From Candidatus Methanophagales archaeon (GTDB lineage Archaea > Halobacteriota > Syntropharchaeia > Alkanophagales > Methanospirareceae), in contig QENH01000176.1 of NCBI GenBank assembly GCA_003336485.1, forward strand, positions 1-32,093: a stretch of 32,093 nt of DNA, given 5' to 3'. Made by a program: the position numbers and the translations under genes. This document shows positions 1,050 through 29,667 of this stretch, in pieces. The first letter of the stretch is position 1. Each line of letters starts with the position of its first letter. The notes under the pieces are model-generated. The model worked only from the letters and a program-made list of their open reading frames with translations, was not told the origin of the DNA and searched no databases.

Positions 1050-1050
1050 T

Positions 1051-2927: not shown

Positions 2928-2932
2928 CTTAC

Positions 2933-8129: not shown

Positions 8130-9833
8130 TTATGGGTAATATAGATTAGACACCATATCTAGTTGCTCCGAAGTTATCTTACCGTCATCATAGTCTTGCG
8201 TTGCGTCATCTACTTCGCTTTCGTCTATTATGCCATCTTCGTTAGCGTCATATCGCCATGGGTCGAATAGGAATATAAGTTTGTTCTGCGCGATTGGTAT
8301 GCCCACAGCTATGCCGTCTTTTGTATAGAACCACGTATCAAGCTTGTCCGGATTGTAGACCTCCCACATCAGTGGATGATAGAGCGCATACACAGGAAGG
8401 TCATCTGCAATAATCGTTTGCATATCTCCAACACATTCCTTTCGCACATCCTCTTTCGTTGTCTTTAATTGTTTCTCGTATAGCTCGTTATACTCGTCAT
8501 TTTTGTACGAATAAAAAGTATATAATTTCCTTGGCTGTACTATAGCCCCATGACCGCTTATTGCGATATTGAATTCACCCGTATTTAAGATGGGGTCTAT
8601 CTCTTTACTGCTCATCATTCTTACTTCTGTCTTTATTCCGATTTTCTCTAAGTTCTCGTGTATGTACTCCGCTTCGTCTTTAGCGTTCATAATCGTGTTC
8701 GCAAACAGCACGAATTCTATATCTTCGCCGCCCGGATAATTCCTTACTCCATTGCCGTCGGTGTCCGTGAAGTTCAACTCGTCGAGCATTTTATTAGCTG
8801 TTACATTATTGTACTCATAACCTGGCAGATCATCCTTATACCATTTTGAATCAGGGTGGATTATACCCGTATTTGCGACTATTGCACCATCGTGCATGAC
8901 GTTTTTAACGAATCCTTCTCTGTCTATGCCATAAGCAAGTGCGTGTCTGAACTCCTTAATATTCGTCGGATACTTCTCACAATTGAAGTATAGCTTGCGT
9001 ACCCACCAGCTCGGACCGGTGATTATCTCAAAATCAGGATCGTTCTCGAATTCTTCCTTCGCCACTATCTCTTTACCCCAGAAGGATGCGACATCTATAT
9101 CACCTGCCTTCAATGCGATAGCATCATTACTGACCTCCCTCGAGATGAACAGGTCAATGATGGGATGCCCTTTGAAGCACTCCGTGTTCGCTTCATACTC
9201 GTAATATCCCTGCTCCGGAACGTATTCCACAAGTTTCAACGGTCCCGTGCCTATAACAGCATCATCGTCTCTGTATTTACCCGGCTCGTCAACGTCCTTC
9301 CATATATGCTCTGGTATTATCGGTATGCTTCCTGTGACATCTTCTATAAATGCAGGTCGCGACTCTTTCAGGTGTATACTAACCGTATAAGGATCCATGA
9401 TCTCAACATGGTCAACGTTCTGCTCATCGTAATTCAACTGTTGCGGATGCTCCTTCACGTAATCGAAAGTGAACTTAACGTCATCAGCCGTAAAAGGCTC
9501 TCCATCGCTCCATTTCACGCCCCTGTGCAGGTAAAAAGTCCATATCTTGGCATCATAGGATGCACTCCAACTGTCTGCAAGCCAGGGTATCACTCTGTCT
9601 TCGTCCTTCCAGGTCAAGGTATCGAACATAAAGCTCATTCGGATATAACCCGGTCCTCGAGGATAATGTGCAAAAGGCGTTGGATAGCCCCAGTCATCCC
9701 CTGAGATTTTGACCACTTTTTCTCCCTCTTCCGCCACCGCTACCATTTCACCTTCCTCATTTGCAACTACCATACCGCTAAAAGCGCAGCACAAAAGTAG
9801 CGCCATCATCAGCAAGGCCATAATTTTCTTCAT
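8130..9833 (-). CDS. ABC substrate-binding protein, family 5 (DppA/OppA/NikA-like), with C-terminal EF-hand/dockerin-like tail
   Basis: 567 aa; signal peptide; WTFYLHRGVKWSDGEPFTADDVKFTFDYV, ALAYGIDREGFVKNV; C-terminus DANEDGIIDESEVDDATQDYDDGKITSEQLDMVSNLYYP. Confidence 0.93.
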   Translation of the reverse strand: MKKIMALLMMALLLCCAFSGMVVANEEGEMVAVAEEGEKVVKISGDDWGYPTPFAHYPRGPGYIRMSFMFDTLTWKDEDRVIPWLADSWSASYDAKIWTFYLHRGVKWSDGEPFTADDVKFTFDYVKEHPQQLNYDEQNVDHVEIMDPYTVSIHLKESRPAFIEDVTGSIPIIPEHIWKDVDEPGKYRDDDAVIGTGPLKLVEYVPEQGYYEYEANTECFKGHPIIDLFISREVSNDAIALKAGDIDVASFWGKEIVAKEEFENDPDFEIITGPSWWVRKLYFNCEKYPTNIKEFRHALAYGIDREGFVKNVMHDGAIVANTGIIHPDSKWYKDDLPGYEYNNVTANKMLDELNFTDTDGNGVRNYPGGEDIEFVLFANTIMNAKDEAEYIHENLEKIGIKTEVRMMSSKEIDPILNTGEFNIAISGHGAIVQPRKLYTFYSYKNDEYNELYEKQLKTTKEDVRKECVGDMQTIIADDLPVYALYHPLMWEVYNPDKLDTWFYTKDGIAVGIPIAQNKLIFLFDPWRYDANEDGIIDESEVDDATQDYDDGKITSEQLDMVSNLYYP

Positions 9834-10161: not shown

Positions 10162-11865
10162 TTATGGGTAATATAAATTAGACACCATATCCAGTTGCTC
10201 CGAAGTTATCTTACCGTCCTCATAGTCTTGCGTTGCGTCATCTACTTCGCTTTCGTCTATTATGCCATCTTCGTTAGCGTCATATCGCCATGAATCGAAG
10301 AGGAATATGAGCTTGTTTTCTGCGATTGGTATGCCAATAGCTACGCCGTTTTGCGTATAGAACCAGGTATCAAGTGTGTCCGGATTATAAACCTGCCACA
10401 TCTTTGGATGATAGAGCGTATACACAGGCAGGTCCTCCGCAATAATCGTTTGCAGGTCGCCAACATATTCCATTCGCGCATCTTCATCCATTGTCTTTAA
10501 TTGTTTTTGGTATAACTCGTCATACTCGTCATTTTGGTATGTGCCATAACTAAAAAATGGACCTTTAAATGTTGTTGGCTTTACTATTCCGCCATGACCG
10601 CTTATTGCAATATGGAAGTCACCGCTCTTTAAAATAGGGTCCAGTTCTTTACTGCTCATCGCTTTTACTTCTGTCTTTATACCAATATCTTCCAAATTAT
10701 CTTGTATGTAGTCTGCTACCTCTTTGGCGTTAGTAAGCAGCACGAATTCTATATCTTCGCCTCCCGGATAATTCCTTACTCCATTGCCGTCAGTGTCCGT
10801 GAAGTTCAACTCGTCGAGCATTTCATTTGCTGTTACATTATTGTACTCATAACCCGGCAGACCATGCTTATACCATTTTGAATCAGGATGAATTATGCCC
10901 GTATTTGCAACGATCGCACCATCATGCATGACATTTTTTACGAGCCCTTCCCGATCTATGCCATAAGCAAGTGCCTGTCTGAACTCATTTATATTTGTCG
11001 GGTACTCGTCACAGTGGAAGTAAAACTTACGCACCCACCAGCTCGGACCTGTTATTATCTCAAATTTCGGATCGTTCTCGAATTCATCCTTCGCAACTAT
11101 CTCTTCACCCCAGAAAGACGCAGCATCTATATCGCCTGCTTTCAACGCAAGTGTATCGTCATTGACTTCCATCGAGATGAGCTTGTCAATGAGTGGCTCC
11201 CCCTTGAAACACTCGGGATTCGCTTCATACTCGTAATATCCCTGTTCCGGAACGTATTTCAGAAGCTTTAGTGGACCTGTTCCTGTAAGTGCTTCATCAC
11301 CTCTAAATTCCTTTGGATCCGTAACATCATTCCAGACATGCTCCGGAATTATCATTACGCTTCCTGCAACGTCCTCTATAAATGCCGGTCTTGGCTCTTT
11401 TAGGTGTATACTAACCGTATAGGGATCAAGTACTTCCACATGATCCACTTCCTCTGCATCGTACCACGGTGTCGGATGCTCCTTTACATAGTCAAATGTG
11501 AACTTAACATCATCGGCCGTAAAGGGCTCTCCATCACTCCATTTCACACCTCTATGCAGATAAAAAGTCCATATCTTGGCATCGTAAGACTTACTCCAAC
11601 TGTCTGCAAGCCAGGGTATCACTCCGTCTTCATCCTTCCAGGTCAAGGTATCGAAGATAAAGCTCGTTCTGATATAACCCGGTCCTCGTGCATAGCGTGC
11701 AAAAGGTGTAGGATATAGCCAGTCATCCCCTGAGATTTTGACTACTTTTTCTTCTTCTTCCGCCGCCGCAGCTACCATTCTACTATCCTCAGTTGCAACT
11801 ACCATACCGCTGAAAGCGCAGCACAAAAGTAGCGCCATAATCAGCAATGCCATATTTTTATTCAT
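10162..11865 (-). CDS. ABC substrate-binding protein, family 5, paralogue 2, with C-terminal EF-hand/dockerin-like tail
   Basis: 567 aa; highly similar along its length to 8130..9833; same C-terminal DANEDGIIDESEVDDATQDYEDGKITSEQLDMVSNLYYP. Confidence 0.93.
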   Translation of the reverse strand: MNKNMALLIMALLLCCAFSGMVVATEDSRMVAAAAEEEEKVVKISGDDWLYPTPFARYARGPGYIRTSFIFDTLTWKDEDGVIPWLADSWSKSYDAKIWTFYLHRGVKWSDGEPFTADDVKFTFDYVKEHPTPWYDAEEVDHVEVLDPYTVSIHLKEPRPAFIEDVAGSVMIIPEHVWNDVTDPKEFRGDEALTGTGPLKLLKYVPEQGYYEYEANPECFKGEPLIDKLISMEVNDDTLALKAGDIDAASFWGEEIVAKDEFENDPKFEIITGPSWWVRKFYFHCDEYPTNINEFRQALAYGIDREGLVKNVMHDGAIVANTGIIHPDSKWYKHGLPGYEYNNVTANEMLDELNFTDTDGNGVRNYPGGEDIEFVLLTNAKEVADYIQDNLEDIGIKTEVKAMSSKELDPILKSGDFHIAISGHGGIVKPTTFKGPFFSYGTYQNDEYDELYQKQLKTMDEDARMEYVGDLQTIIAEDLPVYTLYHPKMWQVYNPDTLDTWFYTQNGVAIGIPIAENKLIFLFDSWRYDANEDGIIDESEVDDATQDYEDGKITSEQLDMVSNLYYP

Positions 11866-13302: not shown

Positions 13303-15012
13303 TTAGGGGTAATATAAATTTGACACCATATCCAGTTGCTCCTGAGTTATCTTACCGTCATCATAGTCTTGCGTTGCGTCATTTACTTCGCTTTCGTCTA
13401 TTATGCCATCTTCGTTAGCGTCATATCGCCATGAATCGAAGAGGAATATGAGTTTGTTCAGTGCGAGAGGGATGCTTCCTGCGATAGCATCTTCTGTATA
13501 GAACCATGTATCAAGCTTATCAGGATTGTAAACACGCCACATCTTTGGATGATATAGCGGATATAGCGGAAGCTCATCCGCTATTATCGTTTGCAGATCG
13601 CCCACAAATTCCTTTCGGTCTTCTTCGTCCATTGTCCTCAATTGTTTCTTGTATATCTCATAATACTCTTCACTACGGCTTGTTCCCATAGCTGTCGTTC
13701 TCAATACACGTGGATTTACTATTCCTCCATGACCACTTATTGCGAACTCAAATGCACCACAACATATCCCCGAGCCCAGTTCCCTCTTACCTACGGATTT
13801 TACTCCTATCTCAATTCCTAGATCCTTTAAATCCTCCTTGATGAATTCCGCTTCATCTGTATATGCCTCACTTGTAATCAGCGTGAATTTGAGTGCTGTT
13901 GTGTTGCTGTCTTCATATTTATAGTCTCTTATCTCGTCACCGTCTGTGTCCGTAAAGTTCAAATCATCGAGTATTTCGTTAGCCTTTGCTATATTATATT
14001 CATAACCCGGAAGATCAGGCTCATACCATTTCGAATCCGGGTGAATTATGCCGGTATTCGCAAGGATAGAACCGTCATGCGTTACTGTCTGTACTATATC
14101 TGCCCTGTCTATACCATAAGCAATTGCACGTCTGAAATCAGAGTTATTCATTGGATACTTACCTACATTGTAGTAGAAATTCAGCACCCACCAGCTTGAG
14201 CCTTCATCTATCTCGAAATCAGGATCATCTTCAAATTCTTCAACCGCAACTATCTCTTTCCCCATGAAGGACGCAGCATCTATATCTCCTGCCATCAACG
14301 CAAGTGCAGGGTCACCTACATCCAGCATGATAAGTCTGTCAATGATAGGTTCTCCTTTGAAACACCCTGTATTCGCTCCATATTCGTAATAGCCCTGTGT
14401 ACCGTCGTATTCTACAAGCTTCAAAGGTCCTGTTCCTATAACGGCATCATCTCCTTGGAATGTATAAGGATCGTCGACATCCTTCCATATATGCTCTGGA
14501 ATCATTGGGACACATCCTGCAACATCATCGATAAATGTGGGTCTCGATTCCGTAAGGTGTATTCTAACGGTATACGGATCAAGTACCTCTATATGGTCTA
14601 TCTCTTTCGCGTTATATGCGTACCACAACTGCGGATGATCTTTCGTGTAATCGAATGTGAACTTCACGTCATCTGCCGTAAATGGCTCACCATCGCTCCA
14701 TTTCACGCCTCTGTGCAGGTAAAAGGTCCATATCTTGGCATCATATGACCTGCTCCAACTGTCTGCAAGCCAGGGTATCACGCCATGTTTGTCTTTCCAG
14801 GTAAGCGTATCGAAGATGAAGCTCATTCTGATATAACCGGGTCCTTTTGGAAAGAGTGCAAACGGAGTAGGATACCCGTAATCACCACCTTCGATCTTAA
14901 TAGTCTTTTCAGCCGTTGCGGCTGCTGTCGCCCCACCTGCTGCAGATGATGTACCACAGAGCGCACAGCATAATAGCATTGCCAAACACAATATAGCAAT
15001 AATTCGCTTCAT
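13303..15012 (-). CDS. ABC substrate-binding protein, family 5, paralogue 3, with C-terminal EF-hand/dockerin-like tail
   Basis: 569 aa; same fold motifs; more divergent in the middle, but C-terminus DANEDGIIDESEVNDATQDYDDGKITQEQLDMVSNLYYP is nearly identical to its paralogues. Confidence 0.93.
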   Translation of the reverse strand: MKRIIAILCLAMLLCCALCGTSSAAGGATAAATAEKTIKIEGGDYGYPTPFALFPKGPGYIRMSFIFDTLTWKDKHGVIPWLADSWSRSYDAKIWTFYLHRGVKWSDGEPFTADDVKFTFDYTKDHPQLWYAYNAKEIDHIEVLDPYTVRIHLTESRPTFIDDVAGCVPMIPEHIWKDVDDPYTFQGDDAVIGTGPLKLVEYDGTQGYYEYGANTGCFKGEPIIDRLIMLDVGDPALALMAGDIDAASFMGKEIVAVEEFEDDPDFEIDEGSSWWVLNFYYNVGKYPMNNSDFRRAIAYGIDRADIVQTVTHDGSILANTGIIHPDSKWYEPDLPGYEYNIAKANEILDDLNFTDTDGDEIRDYKYEDSNTTALKFTLITSEAYTDEAEFIKEDLKDLGIEIGVKSVGKRELGSGICCGAFEFAISGHGGIVNPRVLRTTAMGTSRSEEYYEIYKKQLRTMDEEDRKEFVGDLQTIIADELPLYPLYHPKMWRVYNPDKLDTWFYTEDAIAGSIPLALNKLIFLFDSWRYDANEDGIIDESEVNDATQDYDDGKITQEQLDMVSNLYYP

Positions 15013-15302: not shown

Positions 15303-16142
15303 TCAAATCGGTGTCGCATTTTTCCCCCACCATATCATAGCGCTGTTCAGTTCATGCTTTGACCAGAGTGCCCCGGCTTCCACAACCAGTTTTTCTGCTA
15401 AATATAATCTAATCACTTCTTCTGCTTTTGGCGCTGATACCTCGAGATCATCCATCCATCGCTCTACTGCTTCGTCCAAATCCGAGAACTGCTGGTTATG
15501 TTCTGATTTAATAATCTCAACATTTGCGTGTATACCCATTTCGTACAGAACATTGTAGAGGTAGATGTAATCGGGTCCGGGCTGGAATTGTTCACCGAAT
15601 AATTTGAGCCAGAGTTCGTCATAATTCCAGAATCGCCACCCGGCGAAGGTGAAAATGTAAACATATCGCGTTGCAACATCGTTCATCTTCGAGACAGCAT
15701 CCTGTATATCAAGAATCGCGAGCGAGTGCGATGCGATTACGATGTCGTGTTCGCCCATATCGCGCCCTATCGCCACATCCTCCCATTTCTTGTTTATGCA
15801 AGTTATATTTTTCAATCCTTCAGTTACTGCATTTTCCTTTAGATATGCGAGCATCCCTTTAGAAGGGTCTATTGCAGTAACGTGCTTCACCATTTTTGCA
15901 AGTGGTATTGCAAGCGTTCCGGGTCCTGCACCGATGTCCAGCACGGTATCGTCGGGCTCTATGTCAAGCTTTGCTATTATCCGTTCTGCACGATCATTGC
16001 GTTTTATTGATTCATTGAACCCTTTTGCCCTTTTATCCCAAAATTCAGTCGTATCTCGCTGGCGCCGTTTTCTAAATGATGAGTTCTGCATTGCTTTCTT
16101 CCACATTTCGTTCCAGTCAAGTTCTTCTATCGATTCAACCAT
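15303..16142 (-). CDS. Class I SAM-dependent methyltransferase
   Basis: 279 aa; motif I DTVLDIGAGPGTLAIPLA, VTAIDPSKGMLAYL. Confidence 0.9.
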   Translation of the reverse strand: MVESIEELDWNEMWKKAMQNSSFRKRRQRDTTEFWDKRAKGFNESIKRNDRAERIIAKLDIEPDDTVLDIGAGPGTLAIPLAKMVKHVTAIDPSKGMLAYLKENAVTEGLKNITCINKKWEDVAIGRDMGEHDIVIASHSLAILDIQDAVSKMNDVATRYVYIFTFAGWRFWNYDELWLKLFGEQFQPGPDYIYLYNVLYEMGIHANVEIIKSEHNQQFSDLDEAVERWMDDLEVSAPKAEEVIRLYLAEKLVVEAGALWSKHELNSAMIWWGKNATPI

Positions 16143-16176: not shown

Positions 16177-16728
16177 TCACAAAAATGCCTTTGAAACCCA
16201 ATATGCGATCAACGCGCCGATAAAGCCGGAGATAAAAGCGGCAAGGCCAAGAATAGGTGCGAATTCGGGCGAGGGCCACACTCCGATATGAACACCAATA
16301 GCAATCCATGTAATCCCCAAACACGCTAAATTCCCCAGACCACCACCAAGTCCTACCCTAAATTTAGAGTCCGACCATGTTAGATCTACAAAGAAGCCCA
16401 TTAAAAGCAGAGCGATAATACCGTAAACGCCGAACCAAATGGGTGACACAATTCCGTACCACGGCGCTATAAGCATGCAAAAAGAAGCTATTAAAAGCGA
16501 TGTAACAATTGCCACATACTTCTTCTTTATTATCGCCCGTGCCAAAGCCGCCCATAACACAAATATGAAACCGCCCAGTAACGCCATGCCAGCCGCAGGT
16601 CCGGGTATGCTGAAATATTCGGTAAAATATTTTATTGGCAGATATGTATTTAGTAGGGCACTGGCAAAGGCAAACAGGACCATCATTGTGAGATCATACG
16701 CATCAAAATATAAGTTCCGGTCGGTCAT
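16177..16728 (-). CDS. Integral membrane protein, possible ECF-transporter S-component-like
   Basis: 183 aa, about 5-6 hydrophobic segments; small ECF-S-like architecture (FAFASALLNTYLPIKYF...GPAAGMALLGGFIFVLWAALARAII...GGGLGNLACLGITWIAIG). Family assignment tentative. Confidence 0.6.
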   Translation of the reverse strand: MTDRNLYFDAYDLTMMVLFAFASALLNTYLPIKYFTEYFSIPGPAAGMALLGGFIFVLWAALARAIIKKKYVAIVTSLLIASFCMLIAPWYGIVSPIWFGVYGIIALLLMGFFVDLTWSDSKFRVGLGGGLGNLACLGITWIAIGVHIGVWPSPEFAPILGLAAFISGFIGALIAYWVSKAFL

Positions 16729-17280: not shown

Positions 17281-17318
17281 ATACATTCTGAACTTTATAG
17301 CAGGTGGTATAAAAAAAG

Positions 17319-17789
17319 ATGAATAAAAGAAGTATAAAGAAGAAGCAAGTGGCACTACTACTTTCGATCTTCGCTATGGCTATTCGGCGGTGGATCGGGA
17401 CCATTTACGAACGAGTTCACATTTATTACGATTCCGAACGTCTGGGCAAAGGGTAATGGCACACCACGTGAATTACTTGCTGCATCGCAGTTCCACAATC
17501 ATATCTGCCCAGGGCTAACCGCAGGATATTTCATACTTGAATATCTTGATGAATATCTGCCTTTTGAGACACCAAGCCAGCAATACCAGGTAATTGCAAT
17601 TCCGCCGTTCTGTAAAGACGATGTCCTTCAATGGAATCTGGAATCTACAGTAGGGAACAAGAATTATGTAGTAAAGGATCTTACTCTGGAACAGAAAGCG
17701 AATTTGAGGTCAACAGTCCAAGCGAGCTTTTAAATCTCAAATCCGCCGGTGTGAACCCCATGGTCGTGCTAGGACTCATAGAGGAATAG
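17319..17789 (+). pseudogene. Decayed secreted FmdE-like gene (signal peptide fused out of frame to remnant of last FmdE domain)
   Basis: MNKRSIKKKQVALLLSIFAMA leader, then out of frame GGGSGPFTNEFTFITIPNVWAKGNGTPRELLAASQFHNHICPGLTAGYFILEYLDEYLPFETPSQQYQVIAIPPFCKDD..., then out of frame again EVNSPSELLNLKSAGVNPMVVLGLIEE; matches 27418..29667 protein ends. Confidence 0.88.
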
Positions 17790-17825
17790 GAAAAGGTAGC
17801 CTTTTCCTACTTTTTTATTTTTTTT
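17789..17825 (+). terminator. Hairpin + T-tract terminator
   Basis: GGAAAAGG-TAG-CCTTTTCC followed by TACTTTTTTATTTTTTTT. Confidence 0.65.
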
Positions 17826-17909: not shown

Positions 17910-19930
17910 CCCACATTCCGCACATTCTGATATAAACAATCTACAAATTTAAATTTACGGGAAATAGCGAGGTGGTGAATGATAACTTTAAATAGGTGCC
18001 TTTTCTTATCGAAGCATGTGAGTATTAATGTATCCAAATACGCAAGCACACGCAGGAGAGACGGCAAGTTTAGCCGAATATAGCAGTAAAAACATAGATC
18101 ACCTTGGCATAGTAGCCATGATCTGCAGAGAGATAGATTTAGCAGGCGAGATCGACCGAATCGTGGGCGTAGATCCACGCCAAAAAGTGACTTGTGGAGA
18201 AGCAGTTGTCGCCATGGTCTTGAATGCTCTGGGGTTTGTAGATCGACCACTCTACTTATTTCCAGAGTTCATGGCAACAAAGCCCGTAGAGTTACTAATA
18301 GGCGAAGGGCTAAAAGTAGAGTGGTTCAATGACGATGTCCTGGGGCGGACTTTAGATAAACTATACCGGGCAGGCCCTGAGGCGATATTCATGCAGATTA
18401 CTTCCAAAGCGTACGGCGAGTATTCTGGACGCTTCTTTCACAATGATACCACCTCAATAAACCTTCAAGGCGAGTATAAGCAGAAGGAAGGCGATCTGGA
18501 TGCTGTACCAATAGAGATAATGCATGGCTTCTCAAAGGACGGTAGGCCGGATTTGAAGCAGTTCGTCATCTCGCTGGTCATGTCTGATAGCCTACCTGTC
18601 TTTATAAAGGCTTTAAGCGGAAATACTTCCGACAAAAACCATTTCAGAGAGATAGTTAAGGACTATGGGAAGTCATTGCAGGAGATGTGGGGCAAAGACA
18701 AAATCTGGGTATGGGACAGCGCGGGATACACAGAGCAGACAATAAAAGATATTTCTGGGAGCTACAAATGGATATCACGAGTACCGGAAACGATAACAGA
18801 AGCAAAAGAAGTGCTGGAAAGCATGGACACGGAAAAGATGCTCAGTACCACTCTCAACGGTTACCACATCTTCAGCACCGCAGCGGAATATGGAGGTGTA
18901 AAACAGCGATGGGTTGTGGTATTCTCAGAGAAAGCGTTTGCGAAAGAGACGAAAACGCAGAAAAAGAAGATAGAAAAAGAGAAAAAGCAGGTAGAGAAGG
19001 TGGTATGGCATTTCTCCAATCAAAAATTCCACAGCAAGGAAGACGCACTGAATGCGGCACAGGAGATGGAAAAAGCATGGAAGTATCACAAAATACGCGC
19101 AACGGAGGTCAAGACGAGGCGGAAGAAAAAAGGCGGTGGACGGGGGAAACCGCGAAAAGACGAGCCAACTCAGACGTTATACAGTATAAAAGTAGCGTTT
19201 GAGGCGGATAAAACCGCAATAGAGAAGGAAACGCTGAAGAAGGGGAAGTTTATCGTAGCTACAAACATACTGGATAGAAAGAAGCTGAGTGACGAAGAAG
19301 CGCTTAAAGCATACAAGGACCAGCAGCATGCTGAGAGAGGGTTCAGATTCCTCAAAGACCCTTTATTCTTCGCCCATAGCCTGTTCCTGAAAAATGAAAG
19401 CAGGATAGTTGCGATGGTGATGATAATGGGGCTTGCACTTATGATCTATGGTATAGCGGAGAGGAAGTTGCGAGAAGCGCTGGAGAAGGGGAGTGAATCG
19501 ATTCCTGATCAAAAGAACAAACCAACGAAGAAACCGACGATGAGGCGAGTATTCCAAGTTTTCGAGGGTATTACCGTCCTCTACAGAGGTTCGGAGACTG
19601 TGAAGGTCATGAACCTGAGACCAATTCATCTAAAAGTCCTTTCATTGCTCGGTCGTGAGTATGAGAGGATGTATTGTACCTGTTATGGATAGAAGTTGCG
19701 CGCTACTGAGGATCGTGGCAATGCAAAGTGGAAGAAGAAAGATGTGGTTAGCCTACCGCATCTACTTTTTCATACGAAATCGAGAGAGAATGACGGAAAA
19801 AATGTATAGAGTCCGAAGTGCCATCAGCTATACGAATGTAAATTCGTATAACATACATTATTTGGCAGGTTCATAACTGTCGGGAATTCATGAAATAGTA
19901 TCTTTATAAATATAAAGTGCGGAATGTGGG
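17910..19930 (+). mobile_element. IS1634-like (IS4 superfamily, DUF4277-type) insertion sequence, complete
   Basis: Terminal inverted repeats CCCACATTCCGCAC (17910-17923) / GTGCGGAATGTGGG (19917-19930), flanked by perfect 6-bp direct repeat ATCTCT (17904-17909 and 19931-19936); contains a full transposase ORF. Confidence 0.93.
18028..19692 (+). CDS. IS1634-family transposase
   Basis: 554 aa; N-terminal DUF4277-like LGIVAMICREIDLAGEIDRIVG...; FFHNDTTSINLQGEY; KIWVWDSAGYT; QQHAERGFRFLKDPLF C-terminal catalytic region typical of IS1634. Confidence 0.93.
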   Translation: MYPNTQAHAGETASLAEYSSKNIDHLGIVAMICREIDLAGEIDRIVGVDPRQKVTCGEAVVAMVLNALGFVDRPLYLFPEFMATKPVELLIGEGLKVEWFNDDVLGRTLDKLYRAGPEAIFMQITSKAYGEYSGRFFHNDTTSINLQGEYKQKEGDLDAVPIEIMHGFSKDGRPDLKQFVISLVMSDSLPVFIKALSGNTSDKNHFREIVKDYGKSLQEMWGKDKIWVWDSAGYTEQTIKDISGSYKWISRVPETITEAKEVLESMDTEKMLSTTLNGYHIFSTAAEYGGVKQRWVVVFSEKAFAKETKTQKKKIEKEKKQVEKVVWHFSNQKFHSKEDALNAAQEMEKAWKYHKIRATEVKTRRKKKGGGRGKPRKDEPTQTLYSIKVAFEADKTAIEKETLKKGKFIVATNILDRKKLSDEEALKAYKDQQHAERGFRFLKDPLFFAHSLFLKNESRIVAMVMIMGLALMIYGIAERKLREALEKGSESIPDQKNKPTKKPTMRRVFQVFEGITVLYRGSETVKVMNLRPIHLKVLSLLGREYERMYCTCYG

Positions 19931-20006: not shown

Positions 20007-20837
20007 ATGAAAACGAGAAACATAGGCAAGAAGCAAACAGCGATCGTACTTTCGATCTTTGCATTCGCTGTTCTGGTCTCTTCACTTATGGTAGGAACTG
20101 CCAGCGCACATATGCTCTACATCGACGCAAACGACAAGCCTGATGCGCCATCGGTTCAAGCAGCCAAGATAATCTTTGGGCATCCGAACAATCCGGCAGG
20201 GCACATCGTACCGCAGTTAAAAGAAGTAAAGCAGTATAGACCTGATGGCACGGTTGTAGACTTGAGGGCAATAGAAAAAGACAACCATTCGGTAGCATAC
20301 TTCTTGTATCCGGGAGGAGTCAATATCATCGTTGCATCAAGAGAACCATCAGTCTATGCTGGGAAACTGAGCAAGGGCGACTTTGGGGAAATTCTATGCT
20401 GCGGTGGAGACGCAGGGAACGCTGTGGATCCAGCAACAGGGATGATCCCTTGGGCTAAGGTCACGGGGCAAGAATTAGAAATAGTTCCTTTGGTTAATCC
20501 CTTCAACTTACACGTAGGAGACACTTTCAAAGCCGCAATTCTATCCAATGGCTCATCAATAAATGGGTCATACGCTGGTGCACACGGGACTAAAAGCATT
20601 CATAACGCAACACAGGCTCAGATCGGTGAAACCGCGGAAAATGGCATTTTCTCAATAGACATCACAGAACCAGGGATGTGGCAAGTGAAGGCAGAATATA
20701 TCATTGAGAAACCAGGTACCTGGATCGCCACTAGTGACAATATCAGAGGTAACGAAACGAAATGGCTTACCGGTGATGCGGTCGAATATGAACGGGAAAG
20801 GTACAGAGCTACGCTGACATTCTTTGCTTTACCGTGA
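20007..20837 (+). CDS. Secreted DUF4198-like (NikK-like) protein, copy 1
   Basis: Start moved from 19953 to ATG at 20007, preceded by GGAGGTGAT; MKTRNIGKKQTAIVLSIFAFAVLVSSLMVGTASAHMLYIDANDKPD...; ...MIPWAKVTGQELEIVPLVNPFNLHVGDTFKAAIL... resembles DUF4198. Confidence 0.8.
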   Translation: MKTRNIGKKQTAIVLSIFAFAVLVSSLMVGTASAHMLYIDANDKPDAPSVQAAKIIFGHPNNPAGHIVPQLKEVKQYRPDGTVVDLRAIEKDNHSVAYFLYPGGVNIIVASREPSVYAGKLSKGDFGEILCCGGDAGNAVDPATGMIPWAKVTGQELEIVPLVNPFNLHVGDTFKAAILSNGSSINGSYAGAHGTKSIHNATQAQIGETAENGIFSIDITEPGMWQVKAEYIIEKPGTWIATSDNIRGNETKWLTGDAVEYERERYRATLTFFALP

Positions 20838-20956: not shown

Positions 20957-21811
20957 ATGAAAATAAAAAATAGGGGAAAGAAGCAAACAGCGATCGTACT
21001 TTCGATCTTTGCCCTAGCAGTTCTAGCCTCTTCACTTGTGGTAGGGTTAGCCAGCGCGCATATGCTTTATATCGAAGCGAACGACAAGCCAGATATACCC
21101 TCTGTTCAAGCAGCCAGGATAAATCTTGGACATCCTAATATACCTGTAGAACTTAAAGCACCGAGGATAGAAGAAGCAAAGCTTTATGGGCCGGGTGATA
21201 CCGTTAAAGACTTGAAACTGCTAGAAAAGGCTAACTATTCTGTAGTATACTTCCTATTGAACCAAAACGGGGATCACATCATAGGTGCAAAAAGAGTGGG
21301 TATCTACGATCCGGCATGGCATAATCTTACGGGTATTATTCCGTTACAGTTGATCATAGATAGCGCCAAAATTGTAATTCGTGCAGGAGGGGAGAGTAAT
21401 ACAGAAAAATCAGGCATGATTCCCTGGGCTAAAGTCATTGGGCAAGAGTGGGAAATAGTTCCTTTAGTGGATCCGTTATCTCTACACGTAGGGGATACAT
21501 TCAAAGCCGCTCTTCTCTATAAGGGCTCACCAACCGAAGGTGTATACGCAACAGCTCACGCGACTCAAGATATTCACAGCCCCGCAAAAGCTCAGATGGG
21601 CACAACAGCAGAAGATGGCACCTTCTCAATAGAGGTCAACAAACCCGGGATGTGGCAGGTGGTAGCTGAATATACCGTTGAAGAATCCGGCACCTGGAAC
21701 GCCACTTACGATATTGTCCGACAGGATAAAATGAATTACCTTAAAGGCGATGAAATCGTATATGAACAAGTGCGATGTAGAAGCACGTTGACATTCTATG
21801 CTTCGCCCTGA
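20957..21811 (+). CDS. Secreted DUF4198-like (NikK-like) protein, copy 2
   Basis: Start preferred at ATG 20957; MKIKNRGKKQTAIVLSIFALAVLASSLVVGLASAHMLYIEANDKPD...; clear paralogue of copy 1. Confidence 0.8.
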   Translation: MKIKNRGKKQTAIVLSIFALAVLASSLVVGLASAHMLYIEANDKPDIPSVQAARINLGHPNIPVELKAPRIEEAKLYGPGDTVKDLKLLEKANYSVVYFLLNQNGDHIIGAKRVGIYDPAWHNLTGIIPLQLIIDSAKIVIRAGGESNTEKSGMIPWAKVIGQEWEIVPLVDPLSLHVGDTFKAALLYKGSPTEGVYATAHATQDIHSPAKAQMGTTAEDGTFSIEVNKPGMWQVVAEYTVEESGTWNATYDIVRQDKMNYLKGDEIVYEQVRCRSTLTFYASP

Positions 21812-21890: not shown

Positions 21891-21911
21891 AAAAACCGAA
21901 AGTTTTATAAC
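21891..21911 (+). promoter_or_regulatory. BRE/TATA box of secreted FmdE-like gene
   Basis: AAAAACCGAAAGTTTTATAAC, repeated at 24871 and 27353. Confidence 0.65.
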
Positions 21912-21949: not shown

Positions 21950-23500
21950 ATGAACAAAAAAAGTAGTGGGAAGAAGCAAGTGGCACTAGTGCTTTCGATA
22001 GTCGCTATGGCTATACTGATATCCGCTGCGGGGCTCGCAGTAGCGGAAAACGATTCTGTATGTGACTGCTTAGGTCAACGTGCAGCCGAAGTGGCAAAAG
22101 AGGAACTGCCTTTCGTCATGGATGATCCAAATATCCTCGCGATGACCGATTCCGGATATGCAATAGTAGGCGGGAAAGTAGGTGGAACGACAACAGAAGA
22201 GTGCATTGACAGTGTAATCGCATCATCAGGCTGCACCCTAGGCAACGGCAATCTTTTGCTTGTCCACAGAAGCAAAGAAAAACCGCTCTGGTTCGCTTTC
22301 TTCAATAAGAGCTCAGGAGAGTGTGTCTATCTCGAAGTGGACAGTTCTGTCTTCGACATGACTGCCGCAGATGTAACGGAGCTTCTAGACGATGAAGTCT
22401 TTACAAAGATAGCGAAGGTGAACATCGGTGCAGATGAGCTCTTCGCCAACCCCGAATCATGGCCAAAGGTATTCGGTGGGAACGAATTTACTATAGTAAC
22501 CTTCGCCAATGTTTGGGCTGATGACGCACCCTACGAGTTTATGAAGGCGGCGGAGTTCCACAACCATATCTGTCCCGGACTAACCAGCGGTTACATGATC
22601 ATCGAGTATCTGGACGAGAATTTACCACTCCAAGGCAACCAGAACTACGAGATAATCGCGTGTCCACCATGGTGCAAAGACGATGCTTTTCAGGTTATCT
22701 TCGATAAAACAGTCGGTAAGAGGTTTGTGGCAATGCATCTAACAGAGGAAGACGAAGAACAACTACCAGACAATGTTGCTGGTATATACATTAGATGGGA
22801 TGGAGCAACTAACACGGGAGACGGATTAGTTCTGGCTTTTAACTGGACTAAAGCAAGCGAAGCAAGCGATATTCCTGATAGTTTTAAAGACTATAGGTCG
22901 ATCCGGAAATTGAAAATGGATTTGGAGATGATGAATTATCTCGGCCAACCAGAGACGTTTGTCACCGTAGTAAAAGAATTCGACATCAACAGCGAAGCGG
23001 AACTAATGGAACTCAAGTATGCAGGCAACAATCCGTACGAAGTGCTAGGTCTTATGGAACCTTATCCACTCCAGGAAGAGGCTCAACGGCTTATAGATTT
23101 CACCTGGGGCATACACGACAATACGGAGGAAATCGCAGATAATGAGACATTGAGCAAAGGTGTAAAAACAACCGCCGAGAAAATTCATGTGATTTCTCAT
23201 ACTCTGCTCCATACGGCACAGTATATCAACGATTATAATTTGGAGGCTCTTAAAGACCTTACTAAGGACCCCGAGTCAAACGCGGCAGAAATTAACGACA
23301 CTATCTTTACAATCAGAGAGTATCTGGGAGAATACAAAAATGCCCTGGATGATGCACACGAACTGACCGACGTCCTTGAAGGTATCGTGCCAGACTCGCA
23401 TAGAGCCTACGCAGGTGCTACACACGATGCCATTCACAACGCAGAAGGGAGTGTATTTGCCATTCTCCAGCTTATAGAGCAGCTCGAAGAGGGACTCTAA
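21950..23500 (+). CDS. Secreted FmdE-like protein (one A+B unit) with C-terminal helical extension
   Basis: 516 aa; signal peptide; first domain ...TTEECIDSVIASSGCTLGNGNLL...; second domain AAEFHNHICPGLTSGYMIIEYLDE...CPPWCKDDAFQVIFDKTVGKRFV; C-terminal His/Glu-rich helical region (EKIHVISHTLLHTAQYIND...). Confidence 0.85.
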   Translation: MNKKSSGKKQVALVLSIVAMAILISAAGLAVAENDSVCDCLGQRAAEVAKEELPFVMDDPNILAMTDSGYAIVGGKVGGTTTEECIDSVIASSGCTLGNGNLLLVHRSKEKPLWFAFFNKSSGECVYLEVDSSVFDMTAADVTELLDDEVFTKIAKVNIGADELFANPESWPKVFGGNEFTIVTFANVWADDAPYEFMKAAEFHNHICPGLTSGYMIIEYLDENLPLQGNQNYEIIACPPWCKDDAFQVIFDKTVGKRFVAMHLTEEDEEQLPDNVAGIYIRWDGATNTGDGLVLAFNWTKASEASDIPDSFKDYRSIRKLKMDLEMMNYLGQPETFVTVVKEFDINSEAELMELKYAGNNPYEVLGLMEPYPLQEEAQRLIDFTWGIHDNTEEIADNETLSKGVKTTAEKIHVISHTLLHTAQYINDYNLEALKDLTKDPESNAAEINDTIFTIREYLGEYKNALDDAHELTDVLEGIVPDSHRAYAGATHDAIHNAEGSVFAILQLIEQLEEGL

Positions 23501-23607: not shown

Positions 23608-24054
23608 TTAGTGCTTGTTTTTCGCTTCTAACGATTCAAAATATGACCTTATCACCATAGTCCCCTGCTTGGCAATTTCTATCGGCGGCGATTCCAGAGG
23701 ATTTCCGGATAGGTCAAGCGTGGTAAGGTTCTTTAGCTTTACTATCTCAGCCGGCAATGTCTTCAGTTGATTTTTGGATAGGTAAAGTCCTGTAAGATTC
23801 GTTAGCTCCCCTATCTCAGCCGGTAATGACTCCAGTTGATTTTTGGACAGGTAAAGCCCGGTAAGATTCTTTAGCTTTCCTATCTCGGCAGGCAATGACG
23901 TCAGTTGATTTCCGGATAGCCCAAGCTCGGAAAGAGAGGTAAGCGCACTTATCTCAGCAGGCAATGACGTCAGTTGATTGTCGGGTAGGTAAAGCACAAC
24001 CGGCTTATTTCTTGCCGCTTCTTCGATAACACGCAGAACCTCGTCCTTTTTCAT
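23608..24054 (-). CDS. Leucine-rich repeat protein
   Basis: 148 aa with about five LRRs of the LPAEIGKLKNLTGLYLSKNQLESL type. Confidence 0.88.
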   Translation of the reverse strand: MKKDEVLRVIEEAARNKPVVLYLPDNQLTSLPAEISALTSLSELGLSGNQLTSLPAEIGKLKNLTGLYLSKNQLESLPAEIGELTNLTGLYLSKNQLKTLPAEIVKLKNLTTLDLSGNPLESPPIEIAKQGTMVIRSYFESLEAKNKH

Positions 24055-24346: not shown

Positions 24347-24637
24347 ATGATAAGAAAATTAATCGCTGGTATAATGGTCATGGCACTGGTGGCAACTTCC
24401 ATCTGTGTGGTGAGTGCACGACCGAATTTTGTCGATGCAGATGGCGATGGTATCTGCGATAATATCGGCATAAACGGCCGAGACGATGATGGCGATGGCA
24501 TACCGAACGGGCAAGATGACGATTATGTGCAGCCTCTGGACGGTAGCGGCATGCACCGCGGTAAGGGACAAAACGGCGATTGTGCGCAGCCTCGAGACGG
24601 TAGTGGCAAGCACCGCGGTAATAGACCAGGGAAATAG
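24347..24637 (+). CDS. Small secreted Asp/Gly-rich (thrombospondin type 3-like, Ca-binding) protein
   Basis: 96 aa; signal peptide; DADGDGICDNIGINGRDDDGDGIPNGQDDDYV then Gly/His/Arg-rich imperfect repeats QPLDGSGMHRGK / QPRDGSGKHRGN. Confidence 0.75.
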   Translation: MIRKLIAGIMVMALVATSICVVSARPNFVDADGDGICDNIGINGRDDDGDGIPNGQDDDYVQPLDGSGMHRGKGQNGDCAQPRDGSGKHRGNRPGK

Positions 24638-24932: not shown

Positions 24933-27137
24933 ATGAATAAAAAAAATATAGGTAAGAAGCAAGTGGCACTAGTGCTTTCGATAGTCGCTATGGCCATACT
25001 GATATCTGCTGCGGGGCTCGCAGTAGCGGAAAGCGATTCCGTATTTGACCTTTTAGGTCAACGTGCAGCCGATGTAGCAAAAGAAAAACTGCCGTTTGTC
25101 TATGGCAACCCTAATATCCTCGCGATGTCCGATGCCGGGCATGTGATAGTAGGCGGGAAAGTAGGTGGAAAGACAACGGAAGAGTGCATTGATGGCGTAA
25201 TTGCACCTTCTGGGTGCACAATAGGTAAGGGTAATCTCCTGCTCATCCACAGAAGCAAAGAGAAACCGCTTTGGTTCGCTTTCTTCAATAAGAGCTCGGG
25301 AGAGTGTGTCTATCTAGAAGTGGACAGTTCTGTCTTCGACATGACTGCCACAGAGGTGAAGGCGCTTTCAGACGATGAAGTCTTTACAAAGATAGCGAAA
25401 GCGAATGTCGATGCAGATGAGCTATTCGCCAACCCCGAATCATGGCCAAAAGTATTTGGTGGGAACGAGTTCAGCATAATAACTATCGCCAACGTATGGG
25501 CTAAAGGCGCACCCTACGAGTTCTTGAAGGCGGCTGAGTTCCACAACCATATCTGCCCCGGACTAACCAGTGGTTACTTAATAATCGAATATCTAGACGA
25601 GAATTTACCACTCCAAAGCAACCAGAACTACGAGATAATCGGGTGCCCGCCATGGTGCAAAGACGATGCTTTTCAGGTTATCTTCGATAAAACAGTCGGC
25701 AAGAGGTTTGTAGCTATGCATCTGACTCCGGAAGATAGTGCGCAACTTCCAGAATATTATGCCGGCCCAGGGAAAGGCGGTGTCGCCGGCATATTCATTC
25801 GTTGGGATAAAACTACTGATACCGGGCATGGTTTGGTTTTGGCATATAACCGGACTAAAGCGACAGAAGTGAGCGATATAGATCCCAGTTTAGCACCCCA
25901 TAAGTCGGTCCGGAAATTAAAAACGCTCTTGGCGCTGATGGATTACTTCGACCAACCGGAACTGTTTGTCACAACAGTGCAAGAATTCGACCTCAACAGC
26001 ACAGCGGAACTAATGGAACTCAAGTATGCAGGCAACAATCCGTATGTCGTGCTTGGTCTATTACCTGATCCTGCACTGGCAAACCTCGTAGGTCCTGACA
26101 ATATTGCTGTGGATAATCTACTGGGCTGGCGCGCCGCGGAGATAGCGAAGGAAAAAATATCTTTCGATAAGTATGATCTCGAGGTCCTTGCGATGACCGA
26201 TTCCGGCTATGCAATAGTAGGCGGCGAAGCAGGTGGAAAGACAACAGAGAAGTGCGTTGACGGCGTAATCGCTTCCACTGGCTGCACAATTGGTAACGGT
26301 AATCTGCTCCTCCTACACAGAAGCAAAGAACAACCGCTATGGTTCGCTTTCTTCAACAATGCTACGGGCGAATTCCTGTATCTTGAAGTGGATAATTCGG
26401 TCTTCGAGCTTAGCACCGGTGAATTCAATGCGCTATCTGACGAAGAGGTCTTCACAACGATAGTGAAGGAGAAGATCAGTGCAGAGGAGATATTCAACCA
26501 CCAAGAGGAATGGAATGCGAAGAAGAATGCGAAGGTATTTAACGGGAACGAGTTCAGCCTGATAACCATCGCTAACGTTTGGGCTGCTGGCGCACCCTAC
26601 GAGTTCTTGAAGGCAGTGGAGTTCCACAATCATGTCTGTCCAGGGCTTAGCAGTGGTTACGTCATCGTCAGATACCTGGACGAAAACTTACCGCTACAGA
26701 GCTCCAGTGATAAATATGAAATAATAGGGTGTCCTATATGGTGCAAAGACGATGCTATTCAGGTCATTTTCGATAAGACTGTAGGTAAGCGGTATGTAGC
26801 AACGCTTCTAACAGATGAAGATAAGGCGCAACTACCACGAGTGGCCGGCATTTACATCAGATGGAATGGCACAACTAATACGGGGGACGGGTTAGTCCTG
26901 AAATCGGACAGCACACCGGCAAAGGCAAAGTATGGGTATAACTTCACGTCGGACTTTAGCTGGATCGGAAAGTTGAGCAGAGCTTTATTCTATGGGGCAC
27001 ATTTCGACGAGCCTGAGCTGTTTGTTTCTACGATGCACGAATTCACCGTCAACAGCACAGAGGAGATTCAAAAGCTCAAATATGCCGGTGTGAATCCGTA
27101 TGTCGAGCTTGGCCTATTGAATCAATCAACACCTTGA
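24933..27137 (+). CDS. Secreted tandem FmdE-like protein (A-B-A-B), copy 1
   Basis: 734 aa; signal peptide; two repeats each with ...SGCTIGKGNLL / STGCTIGNGNLL and EFHNHICPGLTSGY / EFHNHVCPGLSSGY. Confidence 0.88.
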   Translation: MNKKNIGKKQVALVLSIVAMAILISAAGLAVAESDSVFDLLGQRAADVAKEKLPFVYGNPNILAMSDAGHVIVGGKVGGKTTEECIDGVIAPSGCTIGKGNLLLIHRSKEKPLWFAFFNKSSGECVYLEVDSSVFDMTATEVKALSDDEVFTKIAKANVDADELFANPESWPKVFGGNEFSIITIANVWAKGAPYEFLKAAEFHNHICPGLTSGYLIIEYLDENLPLQSNQNYEIIGCPPWCKDDAFQVIFDKTVGKRFVAMHLTPEDSAQLPEYYAGPGKGGVAGIFIRWDKTTDTGHGLVLAYNRTKATEVSDIDPSLAPHKSVRKLKTLLALMDYFDQPELFVTTVQEFDLNSTAELMELKYAGNNPYVVLGLLPDPALANLVGPDNIAVDNLLGWRAAEIAKEKISFDKYDLEVLAMTDSGYAIVGGEAGGKTTEKCVDGVIASTGCTIGNGNLLLLHRSKEQPLWFAFFNNATGEFLYLEVDNSVFELSTGEFNALSDEEVFTTIVKEKISAEEIFNHQEEWNAKKNAKVFNGNEFSLITIANVWAAGAPYEFLKAVEFHNHVCPGLSSGYVIVRYLDENLPLQSSSDKYEIIGCPIWCKDDAIQVIFDKTVGKRYVATLLTDEDKAQLPRVAGIYIRWNGTTNTGDGLVLKSDSTPAKAKYGYNFTSDFSWIGKLSRALFYGAHFDEPELFVSTMHEFTVNSTEEIQKLKYAGVNPYVELGLLNQSTP

Positions 27138-27190
27138 CTTCGCCTAAGTAAGCCAGAAAAGCCATATAAGATATAAGATTAAGGGGAATA

Positions 27191-27218
27191 GGAAACGGTA
27201 GCCTTTTCCTACTTTTTT
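27191..27218 (+). terminator. Hairpin + T-tract terminator
   Basis: GGAAACGGTAGCCTTTTCC then TACTTTTTTTA. Confidence 0.5.
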
Positions 27219-27352
27219 TACTTTACTATAAAAAACTAAGGATTTAATCCAGAATCTGATGAGTATCCGATATTTATGATGTAGAGTAAAGAAGAAACTA
27301 GATTGTGTACTTCGTCCATAACATCACACTATATGAATAATACCGCTTGTGA

Positions 27353-27374
27353 CAAAAATCGAAAGTTTTATAAC
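27353..27374 (+). promoter_or_regulatory. BRE/TATA box of double FmdE-like gene 2
   Basis: CAAAAATCGAAAGTTTTATAAC. Confidence 0.65.
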
Positions 27375-27417
27375 ATGAACTATTAACTTTATAGTTGGAG
27401 GTATAAAAAAAACAAAA

Positions 27418-29667
27418 ATGAATAAAAAAATTATGGGAAAGAAGCAAGTGGCACTAGTGCTTTCGATAGTCGCTATGGCCATATTGATATCTGCTGCGGG
27501 GCTCGCAGTAGCGGAAAATAATTCCGTATTTGACCTTTTAGGTCAACGTGCAGCCGATGTAGCAAAAGAAAAACTGCCGTTTGTCTATGGCAACCCTAAT
27601 ATCCTCGCGATGACCGATGCGGGTTATGCGATAGTAGGCGGAGAAGTAGGTGGAAAGACAACGGAAGAGTGCATTGATGGCGTAATTGCATCTTCTGGGT
27701 GCACAATAGGCAAAGCTAACCTTCTGCTCATCCACAGAAGCAAAGAGCAGCCGCTTTGGTTCGCTTTCTTCAATAAGAGCTCGGGAGAGTGTGTCTATCT
27801 AGAAGTGGACAGTTCTGTCTTCGACATGACAGCCACAGATCTGAAGGCGCTTTCGGACGATAAGGTCTTTACAAAGATAGCGAAAGCGAATATCGATGCA
27901 GACAAACTACTCAACGAGCCAGAGGCATGGCAACCGCAGATGGATGCGAAAATATTCGGTGGAAATGAGTTCAGTATAATAACCATCCCCAACGTATGGG
28001 CTAAAGGCGCACCCTACGAGCTTTTGAAGACTGTTGAGTTCCACAACCATATCTGCCCCGGGATAACAAGTGGTTACAACATCATCGAATATCTGGACGA
28101 GAATTTACCACTCCAAGGCAACCAGAACTACGAGATAATCGGGTGCCCGCCATGGTGCAAAGACGATGCTTTTCAGGTTATATACGATAAGACAGTAGGT
28201 AAGAGGTTTGTGGCAATGCATCTAACGGACGAAGAAAAGAAGCAACTTCCAGGTGCCGCTGGCATATATATCCGCTGGGATAAAGCAACAGATACCGGGC
28301 ATGGATTGGTTCTGGCTTTTAACTGGACAAAAGCAAGAGAATTGTGCGACATTGACGAGACGAATAAGGATAAACCCTGGTATTGGTGGTGGATGAGGTT
28401 GAAGATGGACGTGGAGATGATGGACCTCGATGATCCGAAACTGCTTGTCTCGACAATGAAGGAATTCGACCTCAACAGCACAGCGGAACTAATGGAACTC
28501 AAGTATGCAGGCAACAATCCGTATGTCGTGCTTGGACTATTGCCCGATCCTGCACTGGCAAACCTCGTAGGTCCTGAGAACATCGCTGTTGATAATCTAC
28601 TGGGCTGGCGCGCATCCGAATTCGCAATGGAAAACATGTCTTCCGAGAAGTATAATCCGAACATCCTCGCGATGACCGATTCCGGATATGCAGTGATCAA
28701 CGGAGAGAGAACAGAGGACTGCATTGATGGCATACAGGCAAAGACGGGGTGCACGGTTGGTAAAGGTAATCTCCTTGTCATCCGTCGAAGCAGAGATAGA
28801 CCTCTTTGGTTCGCATTCTTTGACAAGAAAACGGAAAACTGTCTGTATCTCGAAGTGGATAATTCCGTCTTCGATAAAAGCGTTGAGGAGTTCATGGCTC
28901 TGCCTGACGAAGAGATCTACACAAAGATTGTGAAGGAGAATGTCAGCCCAGACAGACTTCTCAACGAGTCGTATGCACCAGTATGGGACGCGAAGGTGAA
29001 AGCAAAGGTATTTGGCGGTGGCTCAGGACCGTTTACTAACGAGTTCACTTTCATAACGATCCCGAACGTTTGGGCGAAGGGTAACGGCACACCACGTGAA
29101 TTACTTGCTGCAGCGCAGTTCCACAATCATATCTGCCCCGGACAAACATCCGGATTTTTCATACTCGAATACCTGGATGAATATCTGCCATTGGAAACAC
29201 CAAGCCAACGATACCAGATAATTGCAATTCCGCCCTGGTGCAAGGATGATACCCTGCAATGGAACCTGGAGGCTAGCATTGGAAACAAGAATTACGTAGC
29301 AAAGGACCTTACTACGGAACAGAAGGACAAATTACCAGAAAATGCAAAGAATGTCGCAGGCATATTCATCAGGTGGGACTCCGCTACTGGGACAGGAGAT
29401 GGACTTGTGCTGGCATTTAACTGGACTAAAGCGTATCAGATATCCGGGATGTCTAGTAGCGATCTCTTTGGCCCAGAAGCTTTCGGAACATACAAGTGGT
29501 GGTGGGGAAGACTAAAGATGGACCTGGACATGATGGATTACATAGACGAGCCAGAAACACTAGTCGAAACGATAAAGGAATTTGATGTCAACAGTCCAAG
29601 CGAGCTTTCAAATCTCAAATCCGCTGGAGTGAACCCATTGGTCGTGCTTGGTGTCATGCCAGAGTAA
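27418..29667 (+). CDS. Secreted tandem FmdE-like protein (A-B-A-B), copy 2
   Basis: 749 aa; signal peptide; EFHNHICPGITSGY and QFHNHICPGQTSGF; SGCTIGKANLL and TGCTVGKGNLL. Confidence 0.88.
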   Translation: MNKKIMGKKQVALVLSIVAMAILISAAGLAVAENNSVFDLLGQRAADVAKEKLPFVYGNPNILAMTDAGYAIVGGEVGGKTTEECIDGVIASSGCTIGKANLLLIHRSKEQPLWFAFFNKSSGECVYLEVDSSVFDMTATDLKALSDDKVFTKIAKANIDADKLLNEPEAWQPQMDAKIFGGNEFSIITIPNVWAKGAPYELLKTVEFHNHICPGITSGYNIIEYLDENLPLQGNQNYEIIGCPPWCKDDAFQVIYDKTVGKRFVAMHLTDEEKKQLPGAAGIYIRWDKATDTGHGLVLAFNWTKARELCDIDETNKDKPWYWWWMRLKMDVEMMDLDDPKLLVSTMKEFDLNSTAELMELKYAGNNPYVVLGLLPDPALANLVGPENIAVDNLLGWRASEFAMENMSSEKYNPNILAMTDSGYAVINGERTEDCIDGIQAKTGCTVGKGNLLVIRRSRDRPLWFAFFDKKTENCLYLEVDNSVFDKSVEEFMALPDEEIYTKIVKENVSPDRLLNESYAPVWDAKVKAKVFGGGSGPFTNEFTFITIPNVWAKGNGTPRELLAAAQFHNHICPGQTSGFFILEYLDEYLPLETPSQRYQIIAIPPWCKDDTLQWNLEASIGNKNYVAKDLTTEQKDKLPENAKNVAGIFIRWDSATGTGDGLVLAFNWTKAYQISGMSSSDLFGPEAFGTYKWWWGRLKMDLDMMDYIDEPETLVETIKEFDVNSPSELSNLKSAGVNPLVVLGVMPE

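Follow-up and report, generated by a model that had tools for sequence, protein, structure and literature searches.

Exported FmdE proteins built of paired unlike domains in an ANME-1 archaeon and their possible part in nickel acquisition

The FmdE genes

We analyzed a 32,093-nucleotide stretch of DNA (hereinafter the window; contig QENH01000176.1, our C27) from the 3.18-Mb draft genome of an ANME-1 (anaerobic methanotrophic, Methanophagales) archaeon, in which three forward-strand open reading frames (ORFs) code for proteins with FmdE domains. An earlier note on this DNA, made from the sequence alone, had proposed that these proteins are exported and built of units with a first (A) and a second (B) FmdE domain, one unit in the first gene and two in each of the others. 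All three ORFs are present, and the Pfam FmdE family (PF02663) matches them two, four and four times, respectively, in agreement with this pattern, with scores of 70.9–137.5 bits against a curated cut-off of 22.9. The genes and their parts are as follows:

21950–23500, + strand: FmdE protein 1, 516 residues, one A+B unit (PF02663 twice, unit model, Foldseek)
21950–22045, + strand: signal peptide of protein 1, MNKKSSGKKQVALVLSIVAMAILISAAGLAVA
~22040–22534 and ~22535–23065, + strand: halves A and B of protein 1 (Pfam, profile–profile comparison)
~23066–23497, + strand: C-terminal His-containing region of protein 1, extra to the unit
24933–27137, + strand: FmdE protein 2, 734 residues, two A+B units (PF02663 four times, profile–profile comparison)
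~25023–25517, 25518–26072, 26073–26600 and 26601–27134, + strand: A1, B1, A2 and B2 of protein 2
27418–29667, + strand: FmdE protein 3, 749 residues, two A+B units (PF02663 four times, profile–profile comparison)
~27508–28017, 28018–28557, 28558–29097 and 29098–29664, + strand: A1, B1, A2 and B2 of protein 3

All three proteins open with a signal-peptide-like basic-hydrophobic leader ending in AVA|(E/N), and some FmdE relatives carry a C-terminal membrane anchor formed by a hydrophobic segment and a basic tail. These features support the predicted export of the A+B proteins. They also bear out the distinction drawn earlier from the cytoplasmic FmdE/FwdE of the fwd/fmd operon, as the window proteins have a signal peptide and no fwd/fmd genes were recognized among the window ORFs. 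Pfam gave no PGF-CTERM match on the FmdE relatives, and a literature search for secreted FmdE returned no paper. The C-terminal region of protein 1 matches no Pfam family above cut-off; similar regions occur twice in a 396-residue protein of another family (G053) and also in G000:C6.

Domain composition and fold of the A+B unit

We aligned 98 A+B units as a profile, split them into halves and ran each of these against 33 canonical FmdE sequences in hhalign (hidden Markov model against hidden Markov model). Both half A (98.3%, E = 2.3 × 10−14, 81 columns) and half B (98.5%, E = 1.9 × 10−15, 94 columns) matched canonical FmdE; thus, each unit contains two FmdE domains. The alignment of half A opens directly past the place of the HxHxCPG motif and retains the GCTxGKGNL-type loop, and half B retains HNHICPG, just as the earlier note had read the two domains. 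Direct homology between the A and B profiles was not detected (hhalign 1.5%, halves of the 98 units). The A/B split is thus ancient, and the relationship of the two shows only via canonical FmdE.

An AlphaFold2 model of the A+B unit of FmdE protein 1 is confident (predicted local distance difference test, pLDDT, 88.7; predicted TM-score, pTM, 0.87). Its best match among solved structures is 2GLZ (Foldseek probability 1.00, E = 3.2 × 10−5), which places the unit in the permuted thioredoxin-like α+β fold of PF02663; we found no viral structural relatives. Canonical FmdE is a dimer, and its core adopts a circularly permuted thioredoxin-like fold (PMC2954224). Together with the confident model of the unit, this makes it plausible that the A+B pair is a pseudo-dimer, as proposed earlier, with half A as a permanent ligand-less partner in a geometry like that of the homodimer.

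The metal site

In 2GLZ, the metal (a Zn/Ni mixture) has His15, His17, Cys19 and Cys55 as its ligands, with Asp58, Gln61 and Thr67 at the dimer axis and Arg70 of the partner subunit stacking on the ligand His17 (PMC2954224). In sequence alignments, the FHNHIC stretch of half B supplies the first three ligand equivalents and the Cys of its PPWCKDDAFQ stretch the fourth. The half B segment CKDDAFQ....TVGK aligns with CALDAIQ....TIGR of 2GLZ, such that the equivalents of Cys55, Asp58, Gln61 and Thr67 are all kept. The second motif of half B is therefore intact in its 2GLZ form, and the two domains are not complementarily degenerate as the earlier note had it: only half A has lost ligands. Every window unit has the HxHxC and Cys ligands in its half B and lacks them in its half A. 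Across the 98 units, part of which were found in a first retrieval that used the HxHxCPG and WCKDD motifs, the equivalents of His15, His17, Cys19 and Cys55 are kept in 97, 98, 98 and 98, respectively. In the motif-free set gathered by whole-protein homology, they are found in all complete units but one copy, which reads FPNHIC and is a single gene seen in two overlapping loci (L002 and L135). The best-conserved cysteines of half A occur in just 48 and 52 of the 98 units, leaving A with no conserved ligand; at the position of Arg70, it has Lys, Asn or Asp. Judging from these alignments, half B is a complete predicted His-His-Cys-Cys site and half A has lost its ligands. The latter may contribute second-shell contacts at most, the contact of its loop being extrapolated from the homodimer.

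The earlier note had envisaged one composite metal site per A+B pair. The single site stands, but the sharing of ligands does not. Half A does keep the GCTxGKGN loop, which lies near the partner's metal at the two-fold in canonical dimers, but all four ligands are in B and the cysteines of A are unconserved; we rejected the composite site on this placement and regard it as very improbable.

Among the closest known systems is Dhaf_2992 of Desulfitobacterium hafniense (2GLZ), a single-domain PF02663 protein that shares the fold and, with half B, the HxHxC...C ligands, Asp58/Gln61/Thr67 and the C-x-x-D-A motif. However, Dhaf_2992 is a homodimer with two sites and no reported signal peptide, whereas the A+B unit is a predicted exported fusion of unlike halves with one site. 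The FmdE/FwdE of formylmethanofuran dehydrogenase share the core domain with the A+B proteins. Unlike the versions with a zinc finger, the A+B proteins lack the C-terminal treble-clef Cys4 cysteines after half B, and no finger follows either half. We suggest that calling the A+B branch 'formylmethanofuran dehydrogenase subunit E' is misleading.

Neighboring genes in the window

The remaining features that bear on the FmdE genes are:

4895–5752 and 5749–6666, − strand: NikC-like and NikB-like permeases
8130–9833, 10162–11865 and 13303–15012, − strand: three NikA/OppA-like substrate-binding proteins (SBP_bac_5), with a secreted protein between
15303–16142, − strand: class I S-adenosylmethionine (SAM) methyltransferase (Pfam Methyltransf_25), a neighbor conserved in the genus
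16177–16728, − strand: S-like membrane protein, 183 residues, with the fold of an energy-coupling factor (ECF) S-component (AlphaFold2 pLDDT 89.7)
17293–17795, + strand: broken fourth FmdE copy, unit remnants with shifted frames and stops, ~0.2 kb from a transposase-like gene
20007–20837, + strand: DUF4198 protein 1 (Pfam PF10670, E = 4.4 × 10−21), leader ...GTASA|HMLY
20957–21811, + strand: DUF4198 protein 2 (Pfam PF10670, E = 6 × 10−21), leader ...GLASA|HMLY
21891–21909, + strand: promoter-like motif AAAAAYCGAAAGTTTTATA
24870, 27354, 20902, 19948 and 17260 (+ strand); 17014, 9949 and 4139 (− strand): further copies of AAAAAYCGAAAGTTTTATA

The two DUF4198 genes adjoin the FmdE genes, have similar leaders and share the promoter-like motif with them. 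Both combine the PF10670 match with a leader ending in ASA|HMLY, so that the mature proteins would start with His. The characterized IsDUF4198 is secreted and binds nickel with a Kd of 18 nM through a site that uses its N-terminal His (PMC12537917), which by analogy suggests nickel binding by the window proteins. The role proposed for IsDUF4198 is analogous to that which we propose for the FmdE proteins, although the fold and metal ligands of the two are unrelated. A separate DUF4198-CbiM-NikL-CbiQ-CbiO-like nickel/cobalt ECF operon lies elsewhere in the genome (G000:C19, L134:6987–10831).

The model of the S-like protein matches the ECF S-component 5EDL (Foldseek probability 1.00, TM 0.67, E = 2 × 10−3); against Pfam ABC_cobalt (PF09819), it scores 17.8 bits, under the cut-off of 25.2. 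CbiQ was not recognized in the window but is present near the relatives at L047, L092 and L096. All three NikA-like proteins exceed the SBP_bac_5 cut-off (E = 1.1 × 10−72 for 8130–9833), and three of the eight such genes in the genome lie in the window. For the two tested, NikA is the top NCBIfam model, with 142.1 and 136 bits against a cut-off of 393. A canonical FmdE gene on another contig of this genome (C60) lies directly 5′ of an operon coding for a substrate-binding protein, NikB and NikC.

The broken fourth FmdE copy opens with the leader MNKRSIKKKQVALLLSIFAMAI, which is similar to the other FmdE leaders. It is adjoined by the transposase-like gene (18028–19692, 554 residues). In G003, a sister genome, the matching site beside the S-like gene holds a tandem FmdE gene that is intact. 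Over the stretches that were compared, G003 (L024) is identical in every base to ANME-1 cluster archaeon AG-394-G06, and another genome of the genus, G001 (L022), to Methanophagales CSMAG_2415.

A shared promoter-like motif

Allowing up to three mismatches, AAAAAYCGAAAGTTTTATA has 10 matches in the window compared to 0.03 in shuffled sequences. Its exact 13-base core, AAAAAYCGAAAGT, occurs 13 times in the genome and six times in the window (binomial p = 1.7 × 10−9), where the copies precede FmdE 1–3, the S-like gene and two of the NikA-like genes. Elsewhere, the core lies before a second NikA-like operon, on C137, and before WtpBC on C150. The motif resembles an archaeal BRE–TATA promoter (transcription factor B recognition element and TATA box), but its rarity in the genome argues against a general promoter. 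The copies 5′ of the FmdE genes could have been inherited through duplication, which does not hold for the unrelated genes; their common possession of the motif suggests shared regulation. No NikR-type inverted repeats were found with the patterns tried.

Distribution and genomic neighborhoods of relatives

Our analysis showed A+B units in the archaeal Methanophagales, ANME-2c, Methanothrix, Methanomicrobiales, Archaeoglobi, Bathyarchaeota/Hecatellales and Altiarchaeota, and in the bacterial Dehalococcoidia, desulfo-type Deltaproteobacteria, Desulfotruncus and Sporomusa. Proteins in which the HxHxC unit is present two or three times occur in ANME-1, ANME-2c and Methanomicrobiales, and fall in separate clades of the tree, indicating that tandem arrays arose more than once. 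Within the ANME-1 family, A+B FmdE is found in 28 of 51 genomes and the S-like protein in 19 of 51; all 19 of the latter also have A+B FmdE (Fisher p = 1.6 × 10−7).

We then counted neighbors within 3 kb at 78 A+B loci, the counts being lower bounds due to many short contigs. Radical SAM/SPASM proteins were found in at least 31 loci, the S-like membrane protein in at least 26, SBP_bac_5 in at least 14, NikB-type permeases in at least 11, flavin reductases in at least nine and TonB receptors in at least four; any transport-type gene was seen in at least 44. The density of Nik-type genes is higher within 3 kb (33 of 445 ORFs) than at 6–10 kb (3 of 210; p = 8 × 10−4). In an ANME-2c locus (L069), a three-unit FmdE is collinear with genes for a substrate-binding protein, NikB, NikC and two ATPases. 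A single stretch at L096 codes for CfbB, a CfbC-like protein, CfbA, FmdE, radical SAM and S-like proteins, followed by DUF4198, CbiM, a NikL-like protein, CbiQ, a CbiO-type ATPase and CfbE; here CfbA, CfbB and CfbE exceed their NCBIfam cut-offs, and CfbC and NikL fall below theirs. This places an FmdE relative between genes of F430 synthesis and a CbiM/NikL/CbiQ/CbiO importer. DUF4198 is also near FmdE in L038, L047 and L096.

A short (~280 residues) radical SAM/SPASM family, comprising L033:1807–2655 and 29 similar ORFs, accompanies A+B FmdE in both archaea and bacteria; in NCBIfam, it comes nearest to models of metalloenzyme maturases, with scores far under every cut-off. A candidate CooC-like nickel-insertion ATPase beside the S-like protein (L022/L135) gave just weak NCBIfam MinD/ParA matches and is not claimed.

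Proposed role and alternatives

These observations lead us to favor, as the probable role of the A+B proteins, metal binding at the surface or outside the cell, most likely of nickel, in the service of importers. The domain composition, the placement of the ligand residues, the confident unit fold, the conserved linkage to importers and the common promoter-like motif come directly from the analysis; we infer the geometry of the pseudo-dimer, the identity of the metal, its binding and affinity, its hand-over and the regulation. In each exported pseudo-dimer, half B would hold the metal site and half A would shape the cleft, so that a polypeptide with one, two or three units would have as many sites. 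At or outside the cell surface, these sites would bind a divalent metal in short supply, which is most likely nickel, either free or chelated. From there, the metal would be passed to the NikA-like binding proteins and on to importers of the NikBC or ECF type, and once imported would supply the synthesis of F430 and carbon monoxide dehydrogenase (CODH). More tentatively, A+B FmdE, the radical SAM/SPASM protein and the S-like protein may together form an undescribed extracellular nickel (or nickel-chelate) acquisition system for F430/CODH synthesis in methane-oxidizing archaea and other anaerobes.

Several points weigh against this proposal. The F430/ECF context comes from one locus of a metagenome-assembled genome and a different subclade of the FmdE family, and the constant partners across much of the family are the radical SAM and S-like proteins, whose function is unassigned. 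No NikA-like protein tested reaches the curated NikA cut-off, proteins of the NikA-like kind transport peptides and metallophores as well, and the window NikBC genes lack adjacent ATPase genes. The motif-based first retrieval inflates the apparent conservation of HxHxCPG and WCKDD. The shared promoter-like motif also stands upstream of a tungstate importer (WtpBC), and the site could serve Zn, Co or Fe.

Of the alternatives, the strongest, though still unlikely, is that the substrate is a metal complex (a metallophore, corrinoid or F430-like tetrapyrrole) bound in the cleft, with the metal site anchoring it or stripping its metal, and the radical SAM protein, methyltransferase and flavin reductase making or processing the ligand. 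The recurrence of radical SAM proteins and flavin reductases would fit this, as would the TonB-dependent receptors that adjoin FmdE in Sporomusa loci and in those of the Desulfobacteraceae type, receptors that suit large complexes, and the Thermoplasma acidophilum FmdE structure, which shows a large cleft and an unknown ligand close to the site (PMC2954224). However, the window has no recognizable metallophore synthase, and it is free Ni that the DUF4198 and ECF partners deal with. Distinctly less probable is that the protein acts at the surface as an enzyme or as a thiol/redox chaperone, with a metal that is structural or catalytic rather than cargo: the permuted thioredoxin-like core and the strong conservation of non-ligand residues (e.g., PLWFAFF and NEF) are set against the recurrent importer linkage and the promoter motif in common with importers. 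That tungstate or molybdate is served instead of nickel is hardly credible, for although the motif precedes WtpBC and the radical SAM protein scores highest in NCBIfam with a tungsten-cofactor maturase model (112 bits, cut-off 380), the His2Cys2 site suits cations rather than oxyanions, and the DUF4198, CbiM and Cfb context speaks against it.

The location of most FmdE genes beside metal transporters is already known (Axelrod et al.), and the exported A+B pair extends this known family. NikABC/CntABC-type ABC and NikMLQO ECF importers are its recurrent neighbors, and FmdE is a known component of neither. Even with its structures solved, FmdE has been left without a firm function, and a fused, exported pair of one live and one dead domain, linked to nickel importers, gives it a specific role that can be assigned. 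Anaerobic methane oxidation and methanogenesis need very large amounts of nickel for F430, CODH and hydrogenases, and the sulfidic sediment of the ANME archaea is nickel-scarce; the proposed role bears on how nickel is obtained there.

The cluster also contains genes of other kinds. Between the FmdE genes lie those for a small, secreted protein rich in Asp, in which DGDGI(C/P)N stretches recur (24347–24637), and a 148-residue leucine-rich-repeat protein on the − strand (23608–24054). At the start of the window (3–4009), the same cluster codes for a FecBCD/BtuCD-type ABC importer of the corrinoid/siderophore class.

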